From Faecalicatena sp. Marseille-Q4148 (GTDB lineage: Bacteria; Bacillota; Clostridia; Lachnospirales; Lachnospiraceae): DNA of 64,000 nucleotides. Position 1 is the first letter of the stretch; each line of letters starts with the position of its first letter. The stretch lies in the NCBI GenBank assembly GCA_018228665.1, contig CP073692.1, positions 1,624,046 to 1,688,045 on the forward strand, given 5' to 3'. The position numbers and the translations under genes were made by a program. The notes beneath the pieces were generated by a model. The model was not told the origin of the DNA. It made no database searches and worked only from the letters and a program-made list of their open reading frames with translations. Shown one piece after another: positions 31,849 through 48,380 of this stretch.

Positions 31849-31876
31849 CTGCTATACCTCTTATTCTCTCTCCCGA

Positions 31877-32785: not shown

Positions 32786-32829
32786 AATATGTGATCTCCT
32801 CTTTTAATTCATTTCTGTTGACATCTATT

Positions 32830-32884
32830 ACTATAATGTCCCATTGTTAAATCCAAATACCTTCTTCTGTTAAATCTGTGTAAA
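32830..32884 (-). promoter_or_regulatory. pst operon promoter with Pho-box repeats
   Basis: On the minus strand there are four hexamers at 11-bp spacing: TTTACA, TTAACA, AGGTAT (degenerate) and TTTAAC, spanning 32884 to 32846. They match the TTAACA-N5 design of Gram-positive PhoP/PhoB boxes. TATAGT (32830-32835) is the likely -10; the -35 position (ATTTGG) is poor, as expected for an activated promoter. Confidence 0.65.
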
Positions 32885-32904
32885 AAAGCAGAAACACTAC
32901 AAAT

Positions 32905-32939
32905 AAAAAAACTGCTAGCAGCTCATAGTCTACTAGCAG
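32905..32939 (-). terminator. Terminator of the opp-malY-cyuA operon
   Basis: On the minus strand CTGCTAG...CTAGCAG forms a 7-bp stem, followed by a run of T. Confidence 0.7.
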
Positions 32940-32997
32940 AAAATATTTCTATTTTTCAATTGTTTATTTAGCAGCATAGTTTAAAATGCATACTTTT

Positions 32998-34278
32998 TTA
33001 TGACTGACTTTTTTCCTGTAAAATATCTACTATCGTTTTTTCCGTTCCAATCATTCCCGGAGATGCAATTTCACCCATATGCCGCATCGTCTCTTCCGGT
33101 GAAGCTCCATTAATTCCATGAATTTCATCAATATAAATCTCATGCATTGCAAAATCCGCTGACTGAAATGCCGCATTCACAGCTACAATTCCTTTCATGG
33201 TGCATCCTTTATTTCCACCATGGCAGATCATACCGGTAATGCTGCTGGACATATTATTAATTGTTCTTGCCATCGCATGTTCATCTCCGCCATTCAAATA
33301 CACTAATGCACATGCCATTCCGGTTCCTGCCGCAATACCGCAGCCACAAAATGCAGAAAGTTTGCCGGAGTATTCTTTAATATACATACAAACAAGATAA
33401 CTCAAAGCTGTCGCACGATATAACATCTCATCACTCAGTCCTCGTATCTTACATACACCATATAACGGCATTGTCGCAATGATTCCATGAGCTCCCGAAC
33501 CCGTAATACTCATAGCCGGCTTATCCAGACCAATAACACGCGCTTCAATTGCCGCATTGCAGAGCAGTGAAGCTGTATTCAATTCGTTCTGTGAGATGAT
33601 CTTCCCATCGTTTTTCTCAAGCAGATAACGTGCATATGTTGTTCTTGGGTTTCGGATTCCTTCTTCGAACAGTACGTAATTCATCTCATACGCTGCTTTG
33701 ATAAATTCAATCTCCTCTGCCGGAACTGTTTTCACATATGCAACGATCTGACTCAACGTATAGTTGTGAATCAGAGGCGGTTCTTCCTGCGTATTGGATT
33801 CAGTGATTTCCTCCTTTTCCAGAACAACCTGACCATTTACTTCAATCCGAACAATATTGGTATGTGCGTCACGAATTCTTACCATCGCTTCTCCGCCCGT
33901 TGTTTTTACCTGTGCCTCAACAAAAATGCGGCTTGTGATCTCACTCATTTTTACTGTAATTTTGCCTTCTGCTACAAGCTGCCCAGCGGCATCATTATCT
34001 TCTTTTGTCACATCTGCAAGACTCTCCAGTTCTTTTTCAGGGTTTCCTGCAATTGCACCCAAAGCTGCCGCATATTCATTTCCGTAAAAATGACTATTGG
34101 GGATTCCACAAGTATAAGCATTTTTATACATACCGCTATTTAATAGAAGCGTCACATTTTCAATCGCCCCCGGAACAAATGACTTTGCTTTTGAAACTGC
34201 ATATGCTATTGCTCCCGGCTCTGTCACACCAAGTGCCGGGCGCATATCTTCCTTAATTAATTGTGTCAGTTCATGCAT
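32998..34278 (-). CDS. cyuA: L-cysteine desulfidase family protein (CyuA/UPF0597)
   Basis: A 426-residue enzyme of the UPF0597 / serine dehydratase-alpha-like family; E. coli CyuA (YhaM) breaks L-cysteine into pyruvate, ammonia and sulfide under anaerobic conditions. The start MHELTQLIKEDMRPALGVTEPGAIAYAVSKA is typical. Cysteines likely to hold an iron-sulfur cluster are in SAFCGCGIAAGTGMAC (about 298-312) and MICHGGNKGCTMKG (about 348-361). It is the last gene of the leftward operon after five opp genes and a C-S lyase, so it would consume the cysteine released by those enzymes. A strong GGAGG site precedes the ATG. Confidence 0.88.
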   Translation of the reverse strand: MHELTQLIKEDMRPALGVTEPGAIAYAVSKAKSFVPGAIENVTLLLNSGMYKNAYTCGIPNSHFYGNEYAAALGAIAGNPEKELESLADVTKEDNDAAGQLVAEGKITVKMSEITSRIFVEAQVKTTGGEAMVRIRDAHTNIVRIEVNGQVVLEKEEITESNTQEEPPLIHNYTLSQIVAYVKTVPAEEIEFIKAAYEMNYVLFEEGIRNPRTTYARYLLEKNDGKIISQNELNTASLLCNAAIEARVIGLDKPAMSITGSGAHGIIATMPLYGVCKIRGLSDEMLYRATALSYLVCMYIKEYSGKLSAFCGCGIAAGTGMACALVYLNGGDEHAMARTINNMSSSITGMICHGGNKGCTMKGIVAVNAAFQSADFAMHEIYIDEIHGINGASPEETMRHMGEIASPGMIGTEKTIVDILQEKSQS

Positions 34279-34293
34279 TCTCTTTACCTCCGT

Positions 34294-35475
34294 TTAGCAA
34301 GATAAATTGTTTACCGCTTCCTCTAATTGTTTTAGTGCTTTTTGTAATACAACTCGTGGACATGCTGCATTTAATCTCATAAATCCACTTAATTCTCTTG
34401 TAAAGTCTGAGCCAGGGCTTAAACCTAAGCCTGCTTTTTCAACCATAAACTTTTTCAATTCTGCATTACTCATATTTAATGCTCTGCAATCTAACCAAAC
34501 AAGATAAGTTGCATCTGGAATATTAGCCTTAATGCTCGGAATGTGCTCCTCAAAATAGTCACGAATAAAGTCCAGATTACCAGAAATATATTCCAAAAGC
34601 TGTTCCAGCCATTCTTCACCCTCATTCAGCGCTGTTTCCATTGCCACTGAACTAAAGGCATTATTTCTATGTACATCCATTCCACTCCAGTAAGCGTCAA
34701 ATGCTTTTTTCATCTCCATATTAGGGAACACTGTCGTAGACGCCTGAAGCCCTGCAAGATTAAATGTTTTTGTTACTGAAATACATGTGATGATTTTTTG
34801 ATCAGCTTCCGGTACTGCAATAGCTGCCGGTATGTGCTTTTTCCCATGAAATATGATATCTGAATGAATTTCATCTGAAACTACCAATACATCATTTTCA
34901 AAGCAGAGTCTAAGCATTTTAGCCAGTTCTTCCTGCGTCCAAACACGTCCCAACGGATTATGCGGATTACATAAGATAAAAAGTTTCACTTTAGGATCTT
35001 TTACCAGTCTTTCAAATTCTTCAAAATCCACTTCCCATACACCATCATGCTCTAAGAAATTATTCTGTACGAGCGTTCTTCCTGTGTTTTCTGTAATTTC
35101 AAAAAATTCCGGAAAAACAGGTGGCTGAATCAAAACTTTATCTTCCTTATCCGTAAATAGTTTAATAATAACTGCAAGGGCTGGAACTACCCCCAAACAC
35201 CAGCTGCATAAGTCTGTATCTAATGTCCATCCATTTCGCCTCTTCTGCCAATCAGCATAAGCCTTAAAATAACTGTCCGGACGAGATGTATATCCCCATA
35301 TACCTTCTTCTGCTTTCTTTTTGCAGGCATCAATAATCGGCTGTGCTGTTTGGAAATCCATATCGGCAATCCAAAGTGGAATTACCTGATCTGTTCCGAA
35401 ATTTTTCACTCTTTCGTCATACTTTGCAGAACGGTTTTTACTTCTGTCTACAGGCTCATCAAAATTATATTTCAT
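34294..35475 (-). CDS. MalY/PatB family PLP-dependent C-S lyase, copy 1
   Basis: A 393-residue fold-type I PLP enzyme. Lys236 in SVTKTFNLAGLQAS should bind PLP; the Asn in CNPHNPLGRVW and Asp in VVSDEIHSDI complete the cofactor site. The start YNFDEPVDR...WIADMDF is typical of MalY/PatB, enzymes that cleave the C-S bond of cystathionine and other cysteine thioethers to pyruvate, ammonia and a thiol. It is encoded between oppF and the cysteine desulfidase, 15 nt from the latter. A second homologue is at 42708-43871; the two differ clearly, so this is not a recent duplication. Confidence 0.9.
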   Translation of the reverse strand: MKYNFDEPVDRSKNRSAKYDERVKNFGTDQVIPLWIADMDFQTAQPIIDACKKKAEEGIWGYTSRPDSYFKAYADWQKRRNGWTLDTDLCSWCLGVVPALAVIIKLFTDKEDKVLIQPPVFPEFFEITENTGRTLVQNNFLEHDGVWEVDFEEFERLVKDPKVKLFILCNPHNPLGRVWTQEELAKMLRLCFENDVLVVSDEIHSDIIFHGKKHIPAAIAVPEADQKIITCISVTKTFNLAGLQASTTVFPNMEMKKAFDAYWSGMDVHRNNAFSSVAMETALNEGEEWLEQLLEYISGNLDFIRDYFEEHIPSIKANIPDATYLVWLDCRALNMSNAELKKFMVEKAGLGLSPGSDFTRELSGFMRLNAACPRVVLQKALKQLEEAVNNLSC

Positions 35476-35500
35476 AGCTTTCCCCTTTCTCTATGACTCA

Positions 35501-36478
35501 TTATTCAACTAAATGACATGCTACATAATGTTCATTTCCTACATTTTTAAATATTGGTCTTTCTTCTTTACAACGCTGTGTAGCATAAGGGCATCTTGAT
35601 GCAAATTTACAGCCAATCGGCGTATCTATCGGACTTGGAACATCTCCTTGAAGCATTTCTGGTTTCTTCTTTTTACTGATAGCCGGATCAAGTTCAGGAA
35701 CTGCTGACATAAGGGCTTTTGTATACGGATGAAGCGTATGCTCATATAGTTCTTCTGTCTCTGCAAATTCCACAAGAGATCCTAAGTACATAACCCCTAC
35801 TTTCTTAGATATATGTCTTACCATAGAAAGGTCATGTGCAATAAATAAATATGTAAGTCCTAAACTTTCTTGGAGATCTTCCAGCATATTTACTACTTGC
35901 GCCTGAATACTAACATCCAACGCTGAAATAGGTTCATCACAAACAACAAAATCCGGATTTACCGCCAATGCTCTTGCAATTCCGACTCTCTGTCTTTGCC
36001 CTCCTGAAAACTCATGTGGATAACGACTTGCATGATCTTTTCCAAGACCGACTGTATTTAGCAGTTCGTAAATACGCTCCTGTCTTTCTTTTCCTTCAAA
36101 CAGATGATAAATATCCAGTGGTTCACCAATAATATCAGATACTGTCATTCTAGGATTTAATGATGCATATGGATCTTGGAAAATCATCTGCATTCTTTTT
36201 CTATACGGCCATACCTCAGAGGCGCTCAATTGCGCAATATCCTTTCCGTCAAATATAATTTGTCCGGATGTTGGCTTATAGAGACGCATAATTGAATATC
36301 CTGTGGTTGATTTACCACATCCGGATTCCCCTACAAGTCCGATTGTTTCCCCTTTTTGTACTTTGAAGGAAACGCCGTCTACCGCTTTTACATATTCTAC
36401 TTTCTTACCTAAAAGCCCTTTTTTATTTTCAAAATACATTTTTAGGTCTTTTACTTCCAGAAGCGTATTATTTGCCAT
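35501..36478 (-). CDS. oppF: Oligopeptide ABC transporter ATPase OppF
   Basis: A 325-residue ATPase. Walker A GESGCGKST, signature FSGGQRQRVGIARAL, Walker B FVVCDEPISALD. The C-terminal oligopeptide-transporter extension includes a cysteine set (GCKFASRCPYATQRC) that in related proteins binds an iron-sulfur cluster. The ATG at 36478 follows GGAGG; an earlier in-frame ATG is inside oppD and lacks a site. It overlaps the oppD stop by 11 bases. Confidence 0.95.
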   Translation of the reverse strand: MANNTLLEVKDLKMYFENKKGLLGKKVEYVKAVDGVSFKVQKGETIGLVGESGCGKSTTGYSIMRLYKPTSGQIIFDGKDIAQLSASEVWPYRKRMQMIFQDPYASLNPRMTVSDIIGEPLDIYHLFEGKERQERIYELLNTVGLGKDHASRYPHEFSGGQRQRVGIARALAVNPDFVVCDEPISALDVSIQAQVVNMLEDLQESLGLTYLFIAHDLSMVRHISKKVGVMYLGSLVEFAETEELYEHTLHPYTKALMSAVPELDPAISKKKKPEMLQGDVPSPIDTPIGCKFASRCPYATQRCKEERPIFKNVGNEHYVACHLVE

Positions 36479-37499
36479 TACGGATTCCTCCCTTCTGACT
36501 TTCATAATCTTCATTCTTTGGTGCATCCGGATGACACATGAAACAGCTTACACGATGTGTATCGCTAATATATTCTTCTGGAACCGGCATAGATGCACAA
36601 ACTTTCATAGCATATTTGCACCGAGGATAAAATGGACATCCTGTTGGCGGATGAAGCATATCCGGCGGTGTTCCAAGAATCGGAACGAGTCTTTGCTTAG
36701 ATTCCTCACCGGTTACCTTTGGAACAGAGTTCAAGAGCCCCATTGTATATGGGTGATGCGGTTCGTAAAAAATTTCTTCTGTTGTTCCTTCTTCCATGAT
36801 TTTCCCACCGTACATAACAATGATTCTATCACAAATACTAGAAGCACATCCCAAGTTATGTGTAATTAAAATAGTAGCTGTGCCGAGTCTTTCATTCAAT
36901 TCCTTCATCAAAGCTAACACCTGTGCCTGAATAGTAACATCTAAGGCCGTTGTCGGTTCATCTGCAATCAATAATTCCGGCTCACACGAAAGTGCCATAG
37001 CAATCATAGCTCTCTGTCTCATACCACCTGAAAATTCATGAGGATAGGAATGAAATCTCTTTTCCGGTGAAGGAATCCCAACTAAACGCAGCATTTCAAG
37101 AGCACGCTTCTTGGCATCTTCTTTGCTGATTTTATGATGTGTTAAAATAGCTTCTGTAATCTGATCACCAATTTTAAATAAAGGATTTAAAGATGTCATT
37201 GGATCTTGAAAGATCATTGCGATATGATCCCCCTGAATCTTACGCATCTCACTTTTTTTCTTTTTCAAAAGATCTTCTCCATTAAAAAGAATTTCACCTC
37301 CGGTAACTTTGCCCGGATATGCTAAAAGTCCCATGATAGAAAGTGATGTTACACTTTTTCCACTTCCGGATTCACCGACAATACCAATGATTTCACCCTT
37401 ATTCAAATCAAAACTAACATCGCGAATTGCCTTTACCTCTCCCAAATGCGTAAAGAAAGAGGTATGTAAATTTTTAACATCTAATAATTTTTCACTCAT
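36468..37499 (-). CDS. oppD: Oligopeptide ABC transporter ATPase OppD
   Basis: A 343-residue ATPase. Walker A GESGSGKSV, signature FSGGMRQRAMIAMAL, Walker B LLIADEPTTALD, and the C-terminal cysteine-containing extension (TGCPFYPRCKYAMKVC). The ATG at 37499 follows AAGGAGG; upstream codons belong to the oppC end. It pairs with OppF as the cytoplasmic motor of the peptide importer. Confidence 0.95.
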   Translation of the reverse strand: MSEKLLDVKNLHTSFFTHLGEVKAIRDVSFDLNKGEIIGIVGESGSGKSVTSLSIMGLLAYPGKVTGGEILFNGEDLLKKKKSEMRKIQGDHIAMIFQDPMTSLNPLFKIGDQITEAILTHHKISKEDAKKRALEMLRLVGIPSPEKRFHSYPHEFSGGMRQRAMIAMALSCEPELLIADEPTTALDVTIQAQVLALMKELNERLGTATILITHNLGCASSICDRIIVMYGGKIMEEGTTEEIFYEPHHPYTMGLLNSVPKVTGEESKQRLVPILGTPPDMLHPPTGCPFYPRCKYAMKVCASMPVPEEYISDTHRVSCFMCHPDAPKNEDYESQKGGIRNGK

Positions 37500-37512
37500 C
37501 TGGATTTCCTCC

Positions 37513-38850
37513 TTACTTACGCTGTTTTGGATCAAATGCATCTCTCAGACCATCACTGAATAAGTTAAATGTCAAAATAGTTACTGAAATCGCAATCGCC
37601 GGGAATACCATCTGATATGGATAAACATAAATTCCGGCTAACGCATCATTACAAAGTGTTCCCCAGGAAGCCATTGGCGCTGAAATTCCCAAACCTACAA
37701 AACTCAAGAATGCTTCATTAAAAATAGCACTTGGAATCTGCATTGCGATATTTACCATAATTGGTCCCATCATATTTGGAATCAAATGTTTAATAATAAT
37801 TCGTTTTGTATCGGCTCCTGTCACAATGGCTGCTTTAACAAACTCCTGTTGTTTCAAAGTTAAAACCTGCCCTCTGACAATACGAGCCATTTTTACCCAG
37901 AATGTCAATCCTAATGCCAGGATAATAGATGTAATACCAGGACCAACTACAACCATAATTAAAATAACATAAAGCGTCATTGGAATAGAGTCTAATACAT
38001 CGATCACGCGCATCATAATATTATCAACTGCTCCGCCAAAATAACCGGCAATTGCACCATAAAAAACTCCTACAACAAAGTTGATGAATGCTGCAAAGAA
38101 TCCAACAAGAAGTGAAATACGTGCTCCATATACGATACGAATAAATAAATCACGCCCAAGACCATCTGTTCCAAGTAAATATGTTTTATTTCTAAGTTTC
38201 TCCTGGTTTGTAAGTTCCTCTCCATCACAGGAAACTACTGTACGCTGAATTTTATTTTCCAGAATATTTTTCGCTTCTTCTACAGTAACTTCTGTTGTGT
38301 CAGTTCCTGCAAAATATTCTTCTAAATATGTAATTCCTTTGATATCGATTTTATCTAAACCTTTTTTTGCTGCTTTCTTTTCTATTTTTTTGAATTCTTT
38401 ACTTGCTTCTGAATAGGTACTGTAATCGACACAAATTTCACTTCCTTCAACATCGAAATAGTTTTTCTTTGCTGCCATGTCCTTATTCTTTGTTTCTGCA
38501 AGTCCCTCAAGATTTCCTTTTTCATCCACTACAATAACCGTATATTGCGGTGTTACATATATATTTTTTCCATTTTCTAAAGGATATACTTTCATCACAA
38601 CCGGAATATTGGCTAATTCCAAGTCCTGCGTTTTATAATCATATTTCCAGAACATTGGAATAAAAATAGCTCCAATTGTAAGAACTATAATTACAACTAA
38701 AGATAAAATCGCTATTTTGTTAGATTTTAATCTTCTCCATCCATCTTGCAAAAATGTGAGACTTGGACGCTCCATCTTTTCTGCATTTTTTTCATCCTGT
38801 TCTAATGGAGCCCATAATTCCGGAGAAATATTGCTGTTTTTTTCACTCAT
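37513..38850 (-). CDS. oppC: Oligopeptide ABC transporter permease OppC, with extracytoplasmic insert
   Basis: A 445-residue permease; most OppC proteins have about 300. TM1 (about 46-68) is followed by an extra domain of about 140 residues (70-210), Lys/Glu/Tyr-rich and predicted to lie outside the membrane. The last part of it, TYLLGTDGLGRDLFIRIVYG, is the standard entry to TM2. The coupling motif is KAAIVTGADTKRIIIKHLIPN. Inserts of this kind are known in clostridial homologues; this one may contact OppA. The start follows AGGTGATT. Confidence 0.92.
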   Translation of the reverse strand: MSEKNSNISPELWAPLEQDEKNAEKMERPSLTFLQDGWRRLKSNKIAILSLVVIIVLTIGAIFIPMFWKYDYKTQDLELANIPVVMKVYPLENGKNIYVTPQYTVIVVDEKGNLEGLAETKNKDMAAKKNYFDVEGSEICVDYSTYSEASKEFKKIEKKAAKKGLDKIDIKGITYLEEYFAGTDTTEVTVEEAKNILENKIQRTVVSCDGEELTNQEKLRNKTYLLGTDGLGRDLFIRIVYGARISLLVGFFAAFINFVVGVFYGAIAGYFGGAVDNIMMRVIDVLDSIPMTLYVILIMVVVGPGITSIILALGLTFWVKMARIVRGQVLTLKQQEFVKAAIVTGADTKRIIIKHLIPNMMGPIMVNIAMQIPSAIFNEAFLSFVGLGISAPMASWGTLCNDALAGIYVYPYQMVFPAIAISVTILTFNLFSDGLRDAFDPKQRK

Positions 38851-38866
38851 ACTTTAATCACCTATT

Positions 38867-39784
38867 TTACTGATATTTAATACGTGGATCAATTAATACA
38901 TACAGAATATCGACTACCAAAATACATATTACAAGTATAATTGAGAAAAATACTGTAATTCCCATAATTAATGTGTAGTCTCTGTTAAGAATACTATTAG
39001 TAAATAAGTTTCCGATTCCCGGAATACCAAATACTTTCTCAACAACAAAGGATCCTGTAATCAACGCTGCAAACATCGGTCCTATATAAGTTACCACCGG
39101 AAGAAGTGCATTTCTTAATGCATGTTTTCCAAGCACCTTCCACTCCGGAAGTCCTTTGGCTCTCGCTGTTCGAATATAATCCTGATTCAGAACATCTAGT
39201 GTTGATGTTCTAGTAAGACGAACAATATAGGCCAGCGAGAAAAGGGCGCTGACTATAACCGGTCCAATATATCCTTTCCAGCTATTTACTCCATAAGATG
39301 GCACCAAATTTAATATTTTACTGAATAAAAACAGAAATCCTGTCGCAAATACAAAACTCGGGATGGTAGCTCCCAATGTCGATAGTATCATCAATATCCT
39401 GTCTATAAACTTATTCTGTCGCAAAGCTGCAATAATTCCAAAAAACACTCCAAATATCAAAATGACTCCAGACGCCCAAATACCTATTGTTAACGAATAC
39501 GGAAATCCTGCTGAAATAATATCATTCGTTGTAAGTCCTTTTTTCATAAATGAAATACCAAAATCACCATGCAGATAATTCCATAAATATGTTCCGTACT
39601 GTTCAATTGGTGGTCTGTCAAGTCCGTATTTTGCTTTCATATTTGCAATAATCACCGGATCATTCATCTTCTCACTGGCAAATGGATCACCAGGAATCGC
39701 ATTCATCAAAATAAATGTCAGCGTCATAATGAACCAAATTGTAATAATTGCAGAAATTACTCTTTTTATCACATATCTCAGCAT
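38867..39784 (-). CDS. oppB: Oligopeptide ABC transporter permease OppB
   Basis: A 305-residue permease with six helices. The N-terminus (RYVIKRVISAIITIWFIMTLTF) and MNAIPGDPFASEKMNDP are diagnostic of DppB/OppB; the coupling loop is DYIRTARAKGLPEWKVLGKHALRN. It is the partner of OppC, encoded 16 nt upstream of it. Confidence 0.95.
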   Translation of the reverse strand: MLRYVIKRVISAIITIWFIMTLTFILMNAIPGDPFASEKMNDPVIIANMKAKYGLDRPPIEQYGTYLWNYLHGDFGISFMKKGLTTNDIISAGFPYSLTIGIWASGVILIFGVFFGIIAALRQNKFIDRILMILSTLGATIPSFVFATGFLFLFSKILNLVPSYGVNSWKGYIGPVIVSALFSLAYIVRLTRTSTLDVLNQDYIRTARAKGLPEWKVLGKHALRNALLPVVTYIGPMFAALITGSFVVEKVFGIPGIGNLFTNSILNRDYTLIMGITVFFSIILVICILVVDILYVLIDPRIKYQ

Positions 39785-39853
39785 ATTACTTCTCCTCTAA
39801 TAATAGGGAGACCGAAAAGTAAAGCACTTTCCGGTCTTCCTAAAAATAAAAAA

Positions 39854-41593
39854 CTACTCAACGATTTCTGCGTGGCTGAACATAAATGAATTGCCTAATG
39901 TACGTTCAACATTTTCTACGTTATCTTCGTTTACAAGAGCTACGAAAGATGGATAATAAAGCGCAGTTACAGGTACATCTTCCATAAGAGCTTTCTCTGC
40001 TTCCACCCATGCATTATCTCTTTCCTCACCCAATGATGCCGTTGCTTTATCAAATGCTTCGTCAAATGCTTTATTTCCTGGATTTAATGTTGTATCATGA
40101 GAAGCACCTCTGTACTCTTTCCATCTCCACTGGCATGTATTATTTCCGTTCTGAGAATGGAACAGTTTAATCAGTCCACTAGCATCATACGGATTATTTG
40201 TCCATCCACCAGGAGCCATCTGGTAATCACCTTTGCTCTTTGTAGATTGGAATACACTGGACTCTTCTGCACGAAGTTTTACTTTAATATTTAAATTTGT
40301 TTCCAACATCTGCTGAATCGCTTCACAGAGTCTCTTATTCTTTTCACTGTTAGAATATGCAAGTTCTACTTCCGGGAAGCCTTCTCCATTTGGATAACCA
40401 GCTTCTGCAAGTTCTTTCTGAGCTGCTTCCACATTAGCCTGACGTGGGTTAATACCATATTCCTCTGCCGGATAACCATCTTCTTCCATTACACGGAAAG
40501 AAGAACCATCTGTCTTCTGACAAGTTGGAGCAATAAATCCGCTTGCCGGTACAGAACCGTCTTTTAATACCTGTTCTGTAATCTGTTTTCTATCAATAGC
40601 CATTGCAACTGCTTTTCTTACATGAAGGTTATCGAATGGCGCTTTATCAACATTAAAGTTCAAGAACTGTGCACCAGTATCTGCACCAACGATTACATAT
40701 GGATCCTCTGCTACAATCTGAGGAATCTGTTCTGCCGGAAGATGATCCATAACATCTACTTCTCCCGCCTGATATGCCTGATATGCAGTATTATCATCAG
40801 CAATAATAACTGCTTTGATACCTGGAAGTTTTACTTCATCTGCGGCATAGTAATGTGGATTTTTCTTAAATAACATATGTGAACCAACCTGATATTCTTC
40901 TAAGAAGAAAGGTCCATTGCTTACAGCAGTTTCTGGTTTTTTCTCCCAACCTTCACCTGCTTTTTCGACTACTTCTTGCTTAACCGGAAGATAAACATCA
41001 TTAGCAACTAACTGCGGGAAGAATGGCGTTGCATTTTTAAGAACAACTTCAAATGTATAATCATCAATAGCTGTTGCTTTAATATCTTCATATTTTCCTG
41101 TTCCATCAAAGTATTCCTGTCCACCTACAACATAGTCCGTGATAGCCTGAAGTGCTTCTGAAGCGAAATTCGGATCACACATTCTTCTCCATGAATATTC
41201 GAAATCTTTTGCTGTAACACCACTTCCGTCAGACCACTTTGCATCTTTTCTCAAATGAAATGTATATGTCTTTCCGTCTTCTGATACATCCCATTTTTCT
41301 GCAATACCCGGTCTAAATCCATCAGCTGTAGATACTGTAAGTCCTTCAAATAACTGTTTTACAATTCCATCCGAAACAGATTCTGAGTTATTTGTTGGAT
41401 CCCACTGTTTCGGCTCAGAAGATAGTCTCCAAATCAAATATCTTTCTTCGCTTTCTTCCGGTTCTTCTTTCTGAACCTCTTCTTGCTTAGCAGGTTCATT
41501 TTGTGGTTCATTTGTTTTCTTACCACCGCACCCCGCAAGACTACCAGCAATCAATGTTGCCGCCAAAAACAATGCTAATGTTTTCTTTTTCAT
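39854..41593 (-). CDS. oppA: Peptide-binding lipoprotein OppA/DppA type
   Basis: A 579-residue extracellular solute-binding protein of family 5. Lipoprotein signal MKKKTLALFLAATLIAGSLAG then Cys22, an acidic linker (NEPQNEPAKQEEVQKEEPEE), then the SBP_bac_5 domain with LRKDAKWSDGSGVTAKDFEYSWRR (typical text) and VRKAVAMAIDRKQITEQVL. Family 5 proteins bind peptides of two or more residues; specificity is not predictable, but the linked peptidases suggest unusual peptides. It is first in a seven-gene leftward operon. Confidence 0.94.
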   Translation of the reverse strand: MKKKTLALFLAATLIAGSLAGCGGKKTNEPQNEPAKQEEVQKEEPEESEERYLIWRLSSEPKQWDPTNNSESVSDGIVKQLFEGLTVSTADGFRPGIAEKWDVSEDGKTYTFHLRKDAKWSDGSGVTAKDFEYSWRRMCDPNFASEALQAITDYVVGGQEYFDGTGKYEDIKATAIDDYTFEVVLKNATPFFPQLVANDVYLPVKQEVVEKAGEGWEKKPETAVSNGPFFLEEYQVGSHMLFKKNPHYYAADEVKLPGIKAVIIADDNTAYQAYQAGEVDVMDHLPAEQIPQIVAEDPYVIVGADTGAQFLNFNVDKAPFDNLHVRKAVAMAIDRKQITEQVLKDGSVPASGFIAPTCQKTDGSSFRVMEEDGYPAEEYGINPRQANVEAAQKELAEAGYPNGEGFPEVELAYSNSEKNKRLCEAIQQMLETNLNIKVKLRAEESSVFQSTKSKGDYQMAPGGWTNNPYDASGLIKLFHSQNGNNTCQWRWKEYRGASHDTTLNPGNKAFDEAFDKATASLGEERDNAWVEAEKALMEDVPVTALYYPSFVALVNEDNVENVERTLGNSFMFSHAEIVE

Positions 41594-41658
41594 ACACTTT
41601 CCTCCTTCTCATTCATTCTTTTGGTTTCTTTTCCGAAAAAGAAATTCACCTGTGTTTT

Positions 41659-41693
41659 TTACTCACAGTATAATTGTTACTCGTAGTATAATT
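41659..41693. repeat. Two 17-bp direct repeats at the oppA promoter
   Basis: TTACTCACAGTATAATT (41659-41675) and TTACTCGTAGTATAATT (41677-41693), offset 18 bp, differ at two positions. The second contains the -10 of the oppA promoter; the first lies at and just after the predicted start. This is a plausible regulator site, for example for the XRE-cupin protein at 43907-44500. Confidence 0.6.
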
Positions 41694-41713
41694 TATTTTG
41701 TACATTATGTCAA
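41685..41713 (-). promoter_or_regulatory. Promoter of the leftward opp operon
   Basis: On the minus strand TTGACA, 17 nt, TATACT, an excellent sigma-A match. Confidence 0.75.
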
Positions 41714-41717
41714 TATC

Positions 41718-41746
41718 TTGACATATTTTTTTTATTGTTTTATAAT
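41718..41746 (+). promoter_or_regulatory. Promoter of the rightward peptidase operon
   Basis: TTGACA, 17 nt, TATAAT, a consensus promoter. Its -35 and that of the opp operon form the inverted repeat TGTCAA-TATC-TTGACA (41708-41723), so the two promoters stand back to back. Confidence 0.78.
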
Positions 41747-41812
41747 ATTTTTACAACTATTGTTTTGTTTTATCTATAAGTAACTCAACACAATTGCAAG
41801 GAGGATTATTCT

Positions 41813-42667
41813 ATGAAGAAAGCCCTGAAAATCTATATTTCTATCGACATGGAAGGAATGGCAGGTATTACCTCTCCTTCTCAGGAACGCGAAGAAGTTC
41901 CTTCTTTTCGACGTGCTCTGCATAATCAGGTGCGTTGGATTATCGAGGGAATTCAGGCTTCTTCCAGAAATGATGAAGTAGAAGAAATTACTATTTCCGA
42001 TTCTCACGGAAATGGAACAAATCTTTCTTATGATGAACTTTGCCAAATGGACGAACGTATCAGCTTAGTTAGTGGTTCTCCAAGAAGACAGTTTATGATG
42101 TCATGTCTGGATGAAACTTATGATGTTGTTTTTCTCGCAGGTTACCATGCAGGTCCTGGGGAAGGTTTTGCTAATATGGATCACAGTTTCTATGGAAAAG
42201 TTGTCTCCAGTCTTAAAATCAACGGAATATATATGAACGAAAGCACAACAAACGCAGCATTAGCTGCTTCCTACAAAGTTCCTGTTGGTCTTGTCATCGG
42301 AGATTCCGGTCTTTACAAACAACTTATTGAAAAAGAAATGATGCCATGGGTTAAATTTGTCACTACAAAAGAAGCTTTATCCCGCTATGCGGCAAAATTT
42401 CCGCCACAAAAAGTCCTGAGAGAAGAAACCATTTCAGCAGTAAAAGAAGTTCTTGCTTCTGATTTAAAATCTATTCCTTTATATGAAGTAACAACTCCTA
42501 TCACTCTTGGATTTGAATTTAAATCAACCGGAATGACAGACACCGTTGCACAGATACCGCACATGAAACGTTTAAGCGGTACGGAAGTGGAAATCACTTG
42601 CAGCGATATGCACGAATTAGAATGCGGTATTTCCGCTATTACCGGTCTCGCCGGAACATCGAACTAA
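41813..42667 (+). CDS. M55 family D-aminopeptidase (DppA-like)
   Basis: A 284-residue zinc peptidase of family M55. Its B. subtilis relative DppA removes N-terminal D-alanine from D-Ala-D-Ala and related peptides. The metal-site residues are visible: Asp12 and Glu14 (SIDMEGMAG), His65 (SDSHGNG), His112 (GYHAG) and Glu143 (MNES). There is no signal peptide, so it acts on imported peptides. A strong AAGGAGG precedes the ATG. It is first in a five-gene operon divergent from the opp transporter. In B. subtilis the family member is also linked to a dipeptide transporter, which supports function in peptide salvage. Confidence 0.92.
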   Translation: MKKALKIYISIDMEGMAGITSPSQEREEVPSFRRALHNQVRWIIEGIQASSRNDEVEEITISDSHGNGTNLSYDELCQMDERISLVSGSPRRQFMMSCLDETYDVVFLAGYHAGPGEGFANMDHSFYGKVVSSLKINGIYMNESTTNAALAASYKVPVGLVIGDSGLYKQLIEKEMMPWVKFVTTKEALSRYAAKFPPQKVLREETISAVKEVLASDLKSIPLYEVTTPITLGFEFKSTGMTDTVAQIPHMKRLSGTEVEITCSDMHELECGISAITGLAGTSN

Positions 42668-42707
42668 TTTTAATTTTTATCATAATACTATTAGGAGGAT
42701 AACAAAA

Positions 42708-43871
42708 ATGGGAAAATATAATTTTGATGAAGTAATCGATAGGCATGGTACAGCATGTAATAAATGGGAATATAATATTCCTGAAGGCGTTTTACCAATG
42801 TGGGTTGCAGACATGGATTTCGCGGCAGCTCCTGAGATTCGCGAAGCAATGCAGAAACGTTTAGATCACCCGGTTTATGGATATACACATCACAGTAAAG
42901 AATTAAAAGATGCTATCGTATCCTGGGTAAGCAGACGCTATCACTGGGATATCCAGAGTGAATGGTTAGGTTTTAGCCCTGGTGTTGTTCCTGCCCTCGT
43001 TATGAGTCTTTTATCTCTTACAACACCTGGCGATCGTGTAGTAATTATGACCCCTGTTTACCATCCATTCTATTCTTCTATTGAAGAAAATGGACGTGTC
43101 ATCATTAATCATCAGTTAGACTGTGACGAAAACGGACGCTATTCTATCAACTTCGACCGTTTAGAAGCGCAGATTGATAATCGCTGCAAAGCAATTATGA
43201 TGTGCAACCCTCACAATCCTGCCGGTCGCGTATGGACAAAAGAAGAGCTTCTGAAAGTTTCAGAAATCGCTGAACGTCATGAACTTTATATCATCTCAGA
43301 TGAAATTCATGCAGATTTTGTGTACGGCGGAAAACACCACACACCTATGGCCTCTGTGTCCGAATATGCAATGAACCATACAATTACTGCTTTTGCACCA
43401 AGCAAAACTTTTAATGTTGCCGGTTTATGCCAATCTTATGTTGTCATTCCTAATAAGAAATTATTCAACGCTTATAATGCAACTTACAATGCATTTGATT
43501 TGGGCGATAACATTTTCGGAATGACCGCTCTTACTGCTGCATATACAAAAGGCGAAGAATGGCTTGAAGAAATGCTTCAGTATCTTGAAGCCAACAGGGA
43601 TTTTACAGTGAAATATATCGAAGAAAATATTCCGGAAATCAACATCTGGTCACCGGAAGGAACTTATTTATTGTGGCTCGATTGTGCAAAACTAAATTTG
43701 GAAAATGATGACTTAAATCAGTTTTTCTTAGAAAAAGCAAAGGTAAAAATGAATCCTGGTTATCGTTTTGGTGCTCAGTGCAGTACATATATGAGATTAA
43801 ACATTGGTTGTCCACGCGCGCAGTTGCAGGAAGCACTTGCCCGTATTGAAAAAGCAATTAAAAACCGCTAA
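42708..43871 (+). CDS. MalY/PatB family PLP-dependent C-S lyase, copy 2
   Basis: A 387-residue fold-type I PLP enzyme like that at 34294-35475. Lys233 in APSKTFNVAGLCQS binds PLP; CNPHNPAGRVW and IISDEIHADFVYGG are conserved. It begins YNFDEVIDRHGTACNKW, closer to classical MalY/PatB cystathionine beta-lyases than copy 1. Likely reaction: beta-elimination from cystathionine, lanthionine or cysteine S-conjugates. It lies between the D-aminopeptidase and XRE-cupin genes with its own AGGAGG. Confidence 0.91.
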   Translation: MGKYNFDEVIDRHGTACNKWEYNIPEGVLPMWVADMDFAAAPEIREAMQKRLDHPVYGYTHHSKELKDAIVSWVSRRYHWDIQSEWLGFSPGVVPALVMSLLSLTTPGDRVVIMTPVYHPFYSSIEENGRVIINHQLDCDENGRYSINFDRLEAQIDNRCKAIMMCNPHNPAGRVWTKEELLKVSEIAERHELYIISDEIHADFVYGGKHHTPMASVSEYAMNHTITAFAPSKTFNVAGLCQSYVVIPNKKLFNAYNATYNAFDLGDNIFGMTALTAAYTKGEEWLEEMLQYLEANRDFTVKYIEENIPEINIWSPEGTYLLWLDCAKLNLENDDLNQFFLEKAKVKMNPGYRFGAQCSTYMRLNIGCPRAQLQEALARIEKAIKNR

Positions 43872-43906
43872 TTTTAATTCTCGAATCTCGAAAGGGGAGT
43901 GGGAAT

Positions 43907-44500
43907 ATGTATGGAAACCGAATTCGAGAAATGCGGAAAAAAAGAGGTCTAACGCTTAAGGAAGTAGCTGAGGCAACTGGATATACGATAGGACATATCT
44001 CACAAATTGAACGTGATTTAAAATCGCCTTCGTTAACAGCGCTTAGAAAAATTGCTGCCTGCCTGAACTGCTCGGAAGTATGGCTTATCATGGGGGATAC
44101 CGAAGCCAACTTCCAATCATCTAATAATGAGAATTCTTCAAAAGGAACTTACTTAGTTCGAAAAGAAAATAGAATACCAATGCGAATACCGGAAATCGAT
44201 GTTTCCTATTCTATCTTTACACCGTCTGCACTTCCAAATGAACAGGAAGCACAAATGACCGGATTAATTGTAAAGCTAAAACCTGATACCTGGGTTACTG
44301 AGCGTATGATTTCACATGGTAATTATGATGAGAGTATCCTGCTCCTAAAAGGGGAACTGGAACTTCGTATGGATGACAGCACTTATACTATTCATGAAGG
44401 GGATAGTTTTTATATCCCTAAAAACAGTTTGCATAACTACTTAAATACGTCAGATGAAGAAGCGATCATGATCGTTTACTTCTCTCAATTAATTTATTAA
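43907..44500 (+). CDS. XRE-family regulator with cupin domain
   Basis: A 197-residue regulator. The N-terminal helix-turn-helix (about 3-60) reads IREMRKKRGLTLKEVAEATGY then GHISQIERDLKSPSLTALRKIA. The C-terminal cupin (about 105-195) contains ERMISHGNYDESILLLKGELEL and HEGDSFYIPKNSLHNYLNTS. Proteins of this architecture often sense small metabolites such as amino acids or polyamines. It lies in the middle of the peptidase operon and probably controls both divergent operons through the repeats at 41659-41693 (inference). Confidence 0.9.
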   Translation: MYGNRIREMRKKRGLTLKEVAEATGYTIGHISQIERDLKSPSLTALRKIAACLNCSEVWLIMGDTEANFQSSNNENSSKGTYLVRKENRIPMRIPEIDVSYSIFTPSALPNEQEAQMTGLIVKLKPDTWVTERMISHGNYDESILLLKGELELRMDDSTYTIHEGDSFYIPKNSLHNYLNTSDEEAIMIVYFSQLIY

Positions 44501-44513
44501 GGAACCTACAATT

Positions 44514-45512
44514 ATGAAATATATTATAGATGGACATTTTGATTTGCTAAGTGATGTAGCTGTACGCCGAAAAAACGGAGAACATAATGTCATTGAAAGA
44601 TTATATTATCCTTCTTTCAAGAAAGGGAATGTCACTGGAGTTGTTGCTTCTCTTTTTGTGGATAGTCAGTATCTCCCTTATGGCGGTCTTTCCATAGCAA
44701 TGGAACAGATTGCTGCTCTTCATTGTGAAATTAATGAAAGCCCAGATCTTCTCATGCTCTGTACAAGTGCAGAAGATTTTAGAAAAGCTGCTTCCACTAA
44801 TAAAGTTGGAATCCTTCTCTCTTTTGAAGGCTCAGAACCGATTTCTTCCTGCCTGATGCTGCACACATTTTATGCCGCAGGTGTAAGAGGTCTCGGACTC
44901 ACATGGAGCAGACGAAATATGGCAGCTGACGGTTGTGATTTCACAGGCACTCTAAAAAAAGGCGGATTGACCAGTTTCGGAATAGATCTTGTAAAGGAAG
45001 CAGAAGCTTTAAATATGATCATTGATCTCAGCCATTTAAGCGATGAAGGCGTAGATGATATATTATCAATTACATCATGCCCTGTAATTGCATCTCATTC
45101 AAATGCACGTGCAATTGCTCATAATAATAGAAATCTGAAAGATTCTCACTTAAAAGAAATTGCCAAACGCGGCGGAGTTGTCGGCTTAAATGGGTGCAGC
45201 ATCATCAATGCTGATCCTGGCAGTACCCCTGACCGAAAACAGATGATTTCACACTTAGATCATATGTTTAGCGTCATGGGGGAACAGCATGTAGGACTCG
45301 GCTTTGATTTCTGCGACATTTTCCTTAAAAGCAGTTCTGCCGGAGATCTTTCAAAAATGCCTGAATATCCATTTGATATTCTTTCCGGCGGACACAAAGA
45401 TATTCCTGGCTTTCTGCAGGATTTAAAAAATCATAATTATTCCGACGAGCGTATTTCTTTGCTCGCAGGCAAAAACTGGCTTCAGGCATTTGAAAAAATA
45501 CTAAAAAATTAA
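44514..45512 (+). CDS. M19 family dipeptidase (renal dipeptidase type)
   Basis: A 332-residue binuclear zinc dipeptidase. Metal ligands are visible: His8 and Asp10 (DGHFDLL), Glu105 (SFEGSEP), His174 (DLSHLSD) and His195 (ASHSNARA). Family members hydrolyse a wide range of dipeptides, accept D-residues at the C-terminal position, and cleave cysteinyl-glycine and its S-conjugates. No signal peptide, so it is cytosolic. It follows the XRE-cupin gene by 13 nt. Confidence 0.92.
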   Translation: MKYIIDGHFDLLSDVAVRRKNGEHNVIERLYYPSFKKGNVTGVVASLFVDSQYLPYGGLSIAMEQIAALHCEINESPDLLMLCTSAEDFRKAASTNKVGILLSFEGSEPISSCLMLHTFYAAGVRGLGLTWSRRNMAADGCDFTGTLKKGGLTSFGIDLVKEAEALNMIIDLSHLSDEGVDDILSITSCPVIASHSNARAIAHNNRNLKDSHLKEIAKRGGVVGLNGCSIINADPGSTPDRKQMISHLDHMFSVMGEQHVGLGFDFCDIFLKSSSAGDLSKMPEYPFDILSGGHKDIPGFLQDLKNHNYSDERISLLAGKNWLQAFEKILKN

Positions 45513-45536
45513 TTCACGGGAAGGAGTACTTTTACA

Positions 45537-47075
45537 ATGAATTCAGATATGACAAAACAATTAGATCAACTTTTTTGCATGTGGAATCGTGGTTTATGTC
45601 CTGGTGCTCAGGTACTAATTCGTCAACATGGCGAAACACTTTATGAAAAATGCTTCGGATACGGAAATATCGAAAATGAACTAAAAATACATACAAATAG
45701 TATTTTTCACGTTGCATCTATTTCAAAAGAATTTACTGTTATGGCTATTCTTCTTCTCTGGAAAGATAGTAAACTTGATTTAGACGATGATATTAGAAAA
45801 TACCTTGATGAATATATTAATATTGAAACACCGATTACAGTACGTCAGATGATGAACAATGTCAGTGGATTGCGTGACCAGTGGGAACTCCTATTTTTAC
45901 GTGGCATTACAATCAATGATCAGATTACAATGAACGATATCAATACTACTGTACGTCTTCAGAAAAACCTGAACTTTGATCCGCAGTCACAATATTTGTA
46001 CAGCAACACAGGGTTTCATTTGCTTGCTTTAATTGTTGAAAAGTTATCCGGCATGAGCTTTCCGCAATTTGTAAAAGAACGCATTTTCATTCCTCTCGGA
46101 ATGACACATTCTTTCGTTCGTGAAAGCTTTACACAGATTGTTCCAAATCTTGTATATTCTTATCAAGACGATGGAGATGGTAACTTCTACTATAACCCAT
46201 TAAATTATGCACTATATGGACCTACATCCGTTAATACATGTGCTTCCGATCTTTGTAAAGTATTAGATGAATATATTCACCCGAATATAATCGCCCCGGA
46301 AATCATCGAATTGATGAAAAAACCAGCAATCCTAAACAATGGCAATCCTGCTGAATACTGTGGCGGATTGATGACACATAAGCTTCACGGAATGGATGTA
46401 TTTGGACATGGAGGTGCAGATGCTGCATATCGTGGACAAATTATCTGTATTCCGCAAGAAGAATTGGAAATTATCCTTATCAGCAATACGACCACTTATC
46501 CCATGGCTAAGTTGGCTGACAAAGCTGCCTGCATTGTTCTCGGACTGCCTGATTGTACGGAACCTCTTATTCCTGAGCATTCCACAATTCCTGCTTATGG
46601 CGGCTTATTCCTGACCTCTTTACCTGATGATCCTGTTTTTGTTGATATTTCTGTACAAGACGATAAATTTTTTATGAAAAGAGAATGGTGTTACACAGAA
46701 CTGGTCAAAGAAGAAGATGGCGGCTATCGAGTAGGAACGTTAGATGAAAAAATCTATTTTACAGAAGACGGAATTTTATACAGACTTCCAAGCCGTGTAA
46801 TGAAGCTATTTTCTGCTACTCCGGCAAATCCATCCCTTTTCCAAGAAGGAAGTTACTATAACGCTGAAACCGACTCGCATATAACACTGGTAAAAACAAA
46901 TACTACTTGTGAGATTCATATGCTTCGTTATGGAAAAGCAATTCTTTATACCACTTTATCTGGCGAAATTGCATATAAAGTGGATGCTAATTTAGTTATG
47001 TATGTAAAACCAGAAAATAATACACTTACAATGGATGGATCACGAGTAAAACATATTCAATATCAGAAGCAGTAA
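45537..47075 (+). CDS. S12 serine hydrolase resembling D-aminopeptidase DAP
   Basis: A 512-residue penicillin-binding-protein/beta-lactamase-fold hydrolase. The catalytic motifs are Ser61-x-x-Lys64 (ASISKEF), Tyr155-Ser-Asn (YLYSNTGF) and His291-Gly-Gly (FGHGGADAAYRG). Two further beta-rich regions fill about 345-512. Size, motif spacing and the lack of a signal peptide closely recall the cytoplasmic D-aminopeptidase of Ochrobactrum anthropi (about 520 residues, Ser62/Lys65/Tyr153/His287 as I recall), which removes N-terminal D-residues. An esterase or carboxypeptidase activity remains possible. It ends the rightward operon. Confidence 0.82.
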   Translation: MNSDMTKQLDQLFCMWNRGLCPGAQVLIRQHGETLYEKCFGYGNIENELKIHTNSIFHVASISKEFTVMAILLLWKDSKLDLDDDIRKYLDEYINIETPITVRQMMNNVSGLRDQWELLFLRGITINDQITMNDINTTVRLQKNLNFDPQSQYLYSNTGFHLLALIVEKLSGMSFPQFVKERIFIPLGMTHSFVRESFTQIVPNLVYSYQDDGDGNFYYNPLNYALYGPTSVNTCASDLCKVLDEYIHPNIIAPEIIELMKKPAILNNGNPAEYCGGLMTHKLHGMDVFGHGGADAAYRGQIICIPQEELEIILISNTTTYPMAKLADKAACIVLGLPDCTEPLIPEHSTIPAYGGLFLTSLPDDPVFVDISVQDDKFFMKREWCYTELVKEEDGGYRVGTLDEKIYFTEDGILYRLPSRVMKLFSATPANPSLFQEGSYYNAETDSHITLVKTNTTCEIHMLRYGKAILYTTLSGEIAYKVDANLVMYVKPENNTLTMDGSRVKHIQYQKQ

Positions 47076-47118
47076 AAGAGTTAGAAACGAACTCTTGCTC
47101 AAATGATTATTTTAATCA

Positions 47119-47161
47119 TGGCGTCAGACTATCTAATAACTTTATTTTTAGTCTGGCGCCA
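47119..47161. other. 13-bp hairpin after the peptidase operon
   Basis: TGGCGTCAGACTA and TAGTCTGGCGCCA pair fully (one T-G wobble) across a 17-nt AT-rich loop. It lacks a T-tail, so it is a weak terminator, a processing site or an mRNA 3'-end stabiliser. Confidence 0.5.
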
Positions 47162-47198
47162 CACTCTTATATTAATTTTCATAACTTTTCTAACTATA

Positions 47199-47233
47199 AA
47201 AATCTCCCCAACCATATATCTACAGTTGGAGAG
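47199..47233 (-). terminator. Terminator of the YitT-family gene
   Basis: On the minus strand CTCTCCAAC...GTTGGGGAG (one mismatch) is followed by ATTTTT. Confidence 0.7.
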
Positions 47234-47252
47234 ATCATATACTATCAAAGCA

Positions 47253-48134
47253 CTATGATAGTCTCTTTTCAAAGTTTCCGACTGCCTTCGCCCCTTCTGT
47301 AAAGATCATGAATGCATTCGGATCAATATCATGTACAATTCTTGTGATTTCATTCTGTTCATATTTTGAAATCATCACAACAAATACTTTCGATTCTTCT
47401 TTTGTATAAGAACCTTTTCCTTCCCACTCTGTTACGCCTCTTCGCATTTCCTGCATAACAGCCTGCTCCACTCCATCTTTCTTTGTGAAGATCATAACAC
47501 TCAAGCTGATATTCTGAACATGCACCCGGTCACAAGTCATTGCCATAACTGTTGCATAGATAAGGGAGTAAACTGTAATTTCAATGTCAAATACCATAAG
47601 ACAGATTCCATAAACAAAAATGTTCATAATAATGCTGACTTTTCCTACACTGAAAGACGGGTATTTCTTTGCACATACCATTCCAAGTGTATCCTGTCCG
47701 CCGCCTGAACTTCCGCCCCGCAGAATCAGTCCGGTACCGACTCCGGCAACAAGACCTCCGATAATACATGCTGTCAGATAATCTTCGATAATCGGTGTAT
47801 TCGGAATCGGGATAAATGTCATAAACAATGTTTCAATTGTTGTTGTGTAGATAGACAGATAAAAAAAGCTTCTGCCAAGCACCTTCCATGCCATATAAAA
47901 CAACGGTACGTTCAACAGCCAGAAAATAATACCATCCAGGTTGATTCCTCCAAGCGCTGCAATTTTCAGATAATCTACCAGAAAGGTTCTGATCAACTGC
48001 GCGATACCAAGAAATGTACCATTGTACAGATGCAGCGGTAAAATAATAATATTAACACCGGCTGCAAAAAGAAGGCTTCCAAGCGTTGCCCATGCGACAC
48101 GAATGGCCATTTTTTTGTTTTTTAGTTTCTCCAT
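47253..48134 (-). CDS. YitT family membrane protein (DUF161/DUF2179)
   Basis: A 293-residue protein. Five or six membrane helices (about 10-200) include NIIILPLHLYNGTFLGIAQL and the conserved GLILRGGSSGGGQDTLG. A C-terminal soluble DUF2179 domain (about 210-290) shows RRGVTEWEGKGSYTKEESKVF and IDPNAFMIFTEGAKAVG. The family is widespread in Firmicutes, often in several copies; transport function is suspected but unproven. It is a single-gene unit. Confidence 0.9.
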   Translation of the reverse strand: MEKLKNKKMAIRVAWATLGSLLFAAGVNIIILPLHLYNGTFLGIAQLIRTFLVDYLKIAALGGINLDGIIFWLLNVPLFYMAWKVLGRSFFYLSIYTTTIETLFMTFIPIPNTPIIEDYLTACIIGGLVAGVGTGLILRGGSSGGGQDTLGMVCAKKYPSFSVGKVSIIMNIFVYGICLMVFDIEITVYSLIYATVMAMTCDRVHVQNISLSVMIFTKKDGVEQAVMQEMRRGVTEWEGKGSYTKEESKVFVVMISKYEQNEITRIVHDIDPNAFMIFTEGAKAVGNFEKRLS

Positions 48135-48278
48135 TCCTAACTTCCTCCTAATGTACTCATAGACTACATTCTAGCACCTTTGTATATTGTTGACAACTCA
48201 TTTTTCAAGAATCTAATACTGTTTTTGAGAGATTTTACCGGCAGCATCAACCTGCTTCATTTTTCTTTTATGATATGC

Positions 48279-48311
48279 AAAAACAGACCAGTGCTTTCTA
48301 CACCAGTCTGT
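48279..48311 (-). terminator. Terminator of the relQ-like gene
   Basis: On the minus strand ACAGACTGGTGT...ACTGGTCTGT is followed by TTTTTG. The intergenic region 48135-48380 holds nothing else that I can identify. Confidence 0.65.
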
Positions 48312-48380
48312 CTACGATTCTGCAATCTTTCTTCTATAACAGTATTCTGCATCTTATTCTGACACAATCGCTATGCTTCA

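Follow-up and report, generated by a model that had tools for sequence, protein, structure and literature searches.

The question raised by this locus is why an oligopeptide importer, three peptidases, two carbon-sulfur (C-S) lyases and a relative of the cysteine desulfidase CyuA should stand together around one regulator. The locus lies at positions 32998-47075 of the window, by which we mean the whole 64,000-nucleotide stretch of Faecalicatena sp. Marseille-Q4148 that was analysed (assembly GCA_018228665.1, contig CP073692.1), and an initial annotation had read it as a candidate system for peptides that join D-residues and cysteine thioethers. We found this catabolic cluster to be real and conserved, its operons sharing a control region, and, at a probability of roughly one half, we read it as a module under local regulation for the catabolism of short peptides with D-residues and cysteine-derived side chains. 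Its twelve genes are all intact and form two divergent operons flanking a 219-bp gap (41594-41812); running outwards from the gap, the minus operon carries oppA, oppB, oppC, oppD, oppF, malYa and V-cyuA, the plus operon carries M55, malYb, XRE-cupin, M19 and S12, and both ends of the cluster are closed by terminator-like stems:

32912..32939, minus strand: terminator-like stem plus T run after V-CyuA (sequence scan)
32998..34278, minus strand: V-CyuA, a Val-type CyuA-like protein of the CyuA/L-serine-dehydratase superfamily (PF03313, 163.9 bits; alignment to 9fsl; orthologues; clade)
34294..35475, minus strand: MalYa, PatB-family C-S lyase with a pyridoxal phosphate (PLP)-type Lys236 (TIGR04350, 448.9 bits, cut-off 340)
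35501..36526, minus strand: OppF ATPase (homology; orthologues 83–95%)
36468..37541, minus strand: OppD ATPase (homology; orthologues 85–96%)
37513..38850, minus strand: OppC permease, 445 residues (PF00528 and PF12911; Opp3C, 366.4 bits)
38867..39784, minus strand: OppB permease (PF00528)
39854..41593, minus strand: OppA, peptide-binding and lipoprotein-like (PF00496; best PDB match DppE 8ay0, 7e-79)
41594..41812, no strand: divergent control region common to both operons (promoter-like sites and conservation)
41813..42667, plus strand: M55 D-aminopeptidase family protein (PF04951, 258.3 bits, gathering score 25)
42708..43871, plus strand: MalYb, PatB-family C-S lyase (TIGR04350, 478.9 bits)
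43907..44500, plus strand: XRE-cupin regulator, the probable local regulator (PF01381 and PF07883; present in 8/8 loci)
44514..45512, plus strand: M19 dipeptidase family protein (PF01244, 265.2 bits)
45537..47075, plus strand: S12 serine hydrolase, D-peptidase-like (PF00144; 2qmi, 1.6e-36; DAP 1ei5, 2.2e-24)
47201..47236, minus strand: terminator-like stem between S12 and a convergent YitT-type gene (sequence scan)

The gene set of the initial annotation stood, its families being confirmed by Pfam and NCBIfam scans of ten of the twelve proteins, while the names of OppF and OppD rest on homology. Every scanned protein had a Pfam match (SDH_alpha PF03313, SBP_bac_5, two BPD_transp permeases, two class I/II aminotransferase-fold proteins, M55 PF04951, HTH_3 plus cupin, M19 PF01244 and S12 PF00144), and eight of the ten had an NCBIfam match, V-CyuA and M19 being the two with none. 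As no signal peptide was seen by eye in M55, M19, S12, MalYa or MalYb and the start of OppA is lipobox-like, the chemistry is probably cytoplasmic.

An M55 alignment scan of named genome contigs gave at least 80 loci, and further stretches from other genomes were added to the gene-order comparison; counts out of eight refer to the genomes, window included, with an M55 protein at ≥70% identity and with surroundings that were read. The cluster occurs in at least eight genomes, its gene order recurring at 55–96% protein identity. All twelve genes are found in the window and in L090 (genome G401), and eleven, with malYa not in place, in L087 (G235) and L004/L093 (G003, Ca. Lachnoclostridium avicola); G403 (two contigs, L091 and L174) is without malYa and G404 (two contigs, L003/L092 and L173) without malYa and M19, and in both the second contig carries V-CyuA after the Opp genes. 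Enterocloster hominis (L002, G002) has neither Opp nor malYb, and Coprococcus comes MSK.16.63 (L001, G001) has V-CyuA, M55, XRE and S12 only. V-CyuA, M55, XRE-cupin and S12 are each present in 8/8 genomes, at least one MalY in 7/8, Opp, M19 and malYb each in 6/8, and malYa in place in 3/8. Conservation of the neighbourhood, the check named with the initial annotation, came out in its favour, with order, divergence and control region kept over at least eight genomes. Aligned to L087, the stretch L001:8220-13434 shows gaps at five places and brief remnants of oppA and malYb, the four remaining genes being open; this shrunken version may be a natural reduced form or an assembly fault.

Between the window and L087 the ratio of nonsynonymous to synonymous divergence (dN/dS) was 0.026–0.101 over 11 shared genes, at dS values of 0.87–2.18 that are near saturation; between L087 and L001 it was 0.066–0.313 over four genes, and dS against L090 was saturated. 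As regards possible horizontal transfer of the cluster, a yardstick protein encoded at 12138-14180, which we take to be HtpG, is 79% identical in G235, 73% in G002, 73% in G003 and 71% in G401, the corresponding figures for cluster proteins being 80–96%, 68–84%, 55–87% and 56–88%. G+C is 0.374 in the Opp genes, 0.377 in malYa, 0.384 in the plus operon and 0.422 in V-CyuA, with flanks at 0.422–0.427. We rejected carriage of the cluster on a plasmid or phage, since a near-match search found only 37–40-base matches to one plasmid and two phage records. M55 proteins of this kind (E 1e-30) were found in 3/397 genomes of a family sample, two of them (G001 and G002) already known, in 1/392 genomes of an order sample, that one being the sample centre itself, in 4/9 genomes in the genus of G003 and in 1/1 in the genus of G002. 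S12 proteins (E 1e-40) were found in 4/397 family-sample genomes, namely the three M55 genomes and G062; in the latter (L094:8908-11777) the S12 gene (55%) is divergent to a malYa orthologue (71%), and neither M55 nor Val-type CyuA is present.

The gap between the operons holds the following elements:

41659..41675, plus strand: operator-like repeat 1, with TACT-N3-AGTA inside (repeat pattern, conservation)
41677..41693, plus strand: operator-like repeat 2, overlapping the opp-side -10 (repeat pattern, conservation)
41685..41713, minus strand: opp-side promoter-like site (11/12 consensus positions)
41708..41723, no strand: palindrome with both -35 boxes back to back (conservation)
41718..41746, plus strand: M55-side promoter-like site (12/12 consensus positions)

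The back-to-back promoter element keeps the same geometry in 8/8 loci, including the Opp-less L001 and L002; every locus has spacers of 17 in both promoters and TATACT as the minus -10, and the fused -35 boxes read TGTCAA-N4-TTGACA in three loci, with T as the final base in the remaining five and a spacer one base shorter in L093. Because promoter-like sites show no excess in the scanned region overall (53 against 55.3 expected), the weight of this evidence rests on the conservation. A tandem pair of TACT-N3-AGTA repeats overlaps the minus -10, and the exact 17-base pattern occurs twice in 7/8 cluster genomes and once in L002. When eight genomes were searched for the pattern with at most one mismatch, we obtained 37 matches, 13 at the cluster locus and 24 elsewhere; a reversed control pattern gave 22, so the scattered matches are background. 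Exact tandem pairs were found in 6/8 of the genomes searched, always at the cluster locus and nowhere else, the exceptions being G002 (one exact site at the locus) and G062 (without the cluster, no pair); single exact sites numbered one each in G062 and G404. The simplest reading of these patterns is that the cluster's XRE-cupin protein, the regulator that had been claimed inside the set and is kept throughout, controls both operons through this shared putative operator. The two operons are thus probably jointly controlled, and their independent regulation, which the initial annotation had held to tell against its proposal, is spoken against by the shared promoter region in 8/8 loci. No riboswitch, T-box or other RNA control element was found at Rfam gathering scores in 31000-49000. 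The importer, the three peptidases (their families being active on D-residues or tolerant of them) and the C-S lyases, first put forward as one set, accordingly share conservation and a control region.

In the pathway that we propose, OppABCDF would import a short peptide, the cytoplasmic M55 and S12 proteins would take off N-terminal D-residues, and M19 would cleave the remaining dipeptides; the MalY/PatB lyases would then cleave the freed residue at its C-S bond, giving pyruvate, ammonia and a thiol (cysteine in the case of lanthionine), and V-CyuA would deaminate the product by an iron-sulfur-assisted beta-elimination. The XRE-cupin protein would act on the shared operator to govern the two operons. 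Families and context support the D-peptide part; for the thioether part, substrates such as lanthionine are plausible candidates. Of the sulfur substrates, lanthionine is the neatest fit, since a single lyase step would give cysteine, for which a CyuA-like step is then needed. D-residues form during the treatment of food protein with heat and alkali. Lanthionine forms in food protein treated in the same way (PMC10534164), and peptides containing it could come from this source, from lantibiotics or from the Fusobacterium cell wall; a beta-C-S lyase of Fusobacterium accepts DL-lanthionine (PMC11203769, a review).

The most novel part of the cluster is the Val-type CyuA clade. We placed the L-cysteine desulfidase chain 9fsl in M. 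maripaludis numbering with an offset of two and numbered the window protein from its start Met; in the resulting alignment the window protein has Val18 (in GVTEP) at the position of CyuA Cys23, and keeps Glu20 (=Glu25), Arg247 (=Arg223) and the iron-sulfur cysteines Cys311, Cys352 and Cys359, Glu20 and these three cysteines being invariant in 25 aligned rows. In the M. maripaludis enzyme, activity was lost in C23A and in three variants of Glu25, and a variant at the equivalent of Cys23 in M. jannaschii had 0.4% of its activity left (PMC12647591). Glu25 is proposed there as the base with Cys23 also needed, yet the authors report valine at this position in some sequences; this newer proposal replaces the earlier one of Cys25 as catalytic base (PMC5767170), which we set aside. 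Val stands at the Cys23 position in 8/8 cluster genomes and in 17 of the 30 best matches from a 200-genome family sample (17/17 at ≥54% identity, 0/13 at ≤36%). In that sample 75/200 genomes match V-CyuA in any way, a short match in G075 (59%, 73 residues) being left out of the residue count. Among the 120 closest homologs Val is present in all 119 readable rows, 118 by motif and one by eye, one row being truncated. A tree of 58 rows, in which three repeated sequences were skipped, split 24 Val rows from 34 Cys rows on a branch with support of 100/100 and a length of 2.31, long branches near the join leaving the sister group unsure, and united the eight cluster copies as a clade (100/99). A Cys-type paralog (GCTEP) coexists in 7/7 cluster genomes besides that of the window and in 14/17 Val-type genomes of the family sample. 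As Val is conserved, the clade is its own and the Cys-type paralog coexists with it, V-CyuA is a separate subfamily rather than one drifted desulfidase. The initial annotation of a CyuA-type cysteine desulfidase is therefore right as to superfamily, glutamate and iron-sulfur cysteines, but not as to the Cys, replaced by Val18 in a divergent clade; activity on L-cysteine is doubtful, and the label should rather be "Val-type CyuA-like iron-sulfur lyase of unknown substrate". In the sources, members of this clade go by serine dehydratase or by L-serine ammonia-lyase. An in-frame break suspected in relatives of V-CyuA was rejected, as only a single stop was found (position 424, L104). Among 16 further Val-type loci whose stretches were read (L125-L140), a RidA-type gene (PF01042) stands two genes upstream in L125, and in 8/16 (L131-L137 and L140) the Val-type CyuA lies near what is presumably an ssb-like gene, in seven of them also near a presumably rpsF-like gene; six of these ssb-type loci share a conserved neighbor of ~265 residues whose start is basic, recognised by motif in five and by eye in L133.

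The main rival explanation is general use of D-peptides without sulfur chemistry, in which the peptidases would free D-amino acids, the MalY proteins would be broad amino-acid racemases and V-CyuA, lacking the CyuA Cys, a serine-type ammonia-lyase. MalY of L. sakei is a racemase for many amino acids as well as a beta-lyase (PMC5845896), so membership of the lyase family is in itself no proof of sulfur chemistry. The PLP-type Lys is present in 13/13 MalY rows, and a Tyr equivalent by alignment to L. sakei Tyr123 in 12/13. However, the single Phe row is MalYa of the window, and both window proteins, claimed from the outset as MalY/PatB C-S lyases, score above the TIGR04350 PatB cut-off. The Tyr-to-Phe change (MalYa position 121) was rejected as a mark of a subfamily, being found in the window only (1/7 MalYa rows). 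In L086 (G003), L126 and L139 a MalYa orthologue also stands near an SDF symporter, and in the first two near a sigma-54 activator as well, company that would suit sulfur amino acid use. Since cysteine induces cdsB of C. difficile by way of a sigma-54 system (PMC5767170), the MalYa/V-CyuA pair may by analogy belong to sulfur amino acid catabolism. At L126:3900-10083 and L139:5536-9909, V-CyuA lies near the malYa orthologue (67–68%) and the SDF-family symporter, with the sigma-54 activator in L126, perhaps the same chemistry at the level of amino acids. On balance we consider the racemase account unlikely, though it has to be reckoned with. Quite unlikely, in our judgement, is a bolder version of our own proposal, in which V-CyuA would be a separate iron-sulfur lyase family acting not on L-cysteine but on a pathway product of D- or mixed stereochemistry (e.g., D-cysteine, D-serine or meso-lanthionine) and the cluster would be dedicated to D-residue thioether peptides, such as the lanthionine-bridged ones of lantibiotics or of heat- and alkali-treated food protein.

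Turning to the peptidases, residues D12, E14, H65, H112, H124 and E143 of M55, which presumably have metal-site roles, are invariant in 27 rows, and the S12 motifs Ser61-x-x-Lys64, Tyr155-x-Asn157 and His291-x-Gly293 in 41 rows; the solved structures closest to S12 by sequence are DAP 1ei5 and the better-scoring 2qmi, which we take to be Pab87. M55 is the family of DppA, and the M19 family accepts D-residues and includes Cys-Gly dipeptidases. Pab87 reportedly degrades D-residue peptides and lies beside peptide transport genes (PMC2651629), and of the CubicO motifs given for it (YAEAF/L, FFYLN and ERY) the window S12 has 0/3. Elsewhere, a distant M55 gene (51–53%) is directly followed by a PatB-like gene at L005:1252-3345 and L007:10007-12104 (295–299 bits, below the TIGR04350 cut-off), and on a Lacticaseibacillus paracasei plasmid (L089:505-3350) M55 lies between M42 peptidase and proline iminopeptidase-family genes. 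Outside the cluster, the pairings of malYa with S12 in L094, of malYa with V-CyuA in L126 and L139 and of M55 with the PatB-like gene in L005 and L007 speak for the proposed module. The M55 and M19 families would also suit the scavenging of murein peptides, like that of B. subtilis dpp-ykf and possibly directed at the lanthionine-containing murein of Fusobacterium, an account strengthened by the best PDB match of OppA, DppE, being a murein-tripeptide binder (PMC10009517). Nevertheless, OppA falls below every curated NCBIfam cut-off, and a YkfB epimerase, a YkfC/NlpC endopeptidase and an LD-carboxypeptidase are absent from the twelve genes, which makes this account improbable. As to the rest of the importer, OppC exceeds the 328-position Opp3C model and scores below its cut-off of 450, a long stretch separating its N-terminal domain (residues 32-81) from its permease domain (from 261).

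The substrate might instead be Cys-Gly S-conjugates from glutathione, to which an M19 dipeptidase could contribute. Odour-forming Staphylococcus hominis handles these with a transporter, a dipeptidase and a PatB lyase (PMC7385124), but such conjugates fit our cluster less well because they require neither D-aminopeptidases nor a cysteine-handling step; M55, S12 and V-CyuA, three of the four invariant genes, would be left unexplained, and M19 is absent in G404 and G001, so that we regard this source as very doubtful. A chance neighborhood of unrelated genes we reject, for although Opp, malYb, M19 and malYa vary between genomes, the order, divergence and control region are kept over eight of them.

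Several observations nevertheless weigh against a module for D-residue, cysteine-derived peptides. The MalY enzymes may be racemases, and the last step may use a substrate other than L-cysteine, because V-CyuA is without the Cys needed in the M. maripaludis enzyme. The M55 protein reaches 98.7 bits against a cut-off of 430 for DppA (NF058634), and S12 133.7 bits against one of 443 for O. anthropi DAP (NF009622). Since G001 keeps only V-CyuA, M55, XRE and S12, the importer and lyases would be dispensable there for the role of the core, and G002 likewise does without Opp and malYb. The set is found at only four (L001-L004) of the 80 M55 loci listed, M55 genes that are more distant lying elsewhere, and 14 of the 16 further Val-type CyuA loci have no MalY, M55, S12, M19 or XRE-cupin relative in the stretch read, though some of these 14 hold Opp-like genes. 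Apart from the cluster, a selenocysteine tRNA was predicted at the window edge (8-105).

If the proposed module is real in function, some gut bacteria own a dedicated route for peptides left by ordinary peptidases that releases sulfide or thiols, which would have consequences for gut sulfide and for what becomes of lantibiotics and of processed dietary protein; the function of a CyuA-like iron-sulfur clade without the residue needed in tested members also becomes testable. Among the matches listed in our literature searches, no title or abstract joined the cluster's parts, and the one listed paper that brought together at least two of D-aminopeptidase, PatB, CyuA, lanthionine and lantibiotic or nisin degradation was on C. 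difficile CdsB; as subscription journals lie mostly outside these searches, this is weak evidence of novelty.

Known systems resemble the cluster in part. V-CyuA belongs to the same superfamily as the L-cysteine desulfidase CyuA/CdsB and keeps the iron-sulfur cysteines and the Glu put forward as the base (PMC12647591), but it has Val for Cys, forms a separate clade on a long stem and coexists with a Cys-type paralog. The DtpT-dipeptidase-PatB route of S. hominis likewise combines peptide uptake, a dipeptidase and a PatB C-S lyase; in the available part of that report (PMC7385124) it is without D-peptidases or CyuA and is not described as one cluster. With the dpp operon and ykfA-D of B. subtilis, which import and recycle murein tripeptides (PMC2954226, PMC10009517), our cluster has in common a peptide importer and an M55 protein (DppA), but it lacks the Ykf enzymes and has instead two C-S lyases, V-CyuA, S12, M19 and XRE-cupin. 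In the Pab87 neighborhood of Pyrococcus abyssi, an S12 D-peptidase stands with a PLP aminotransferase, a D-aminoacylase and a dipeptide ATP-binding cassette transporter; M55, M19 and CyuA are not named there in the accessible portion of the paper, whereas the pairing of an S12 D-peptidase-like gene with a PLP enzyme and a peptide transporter is the same, and the use of D-peptides was proposed for that neighborhood too (PMC2651629).

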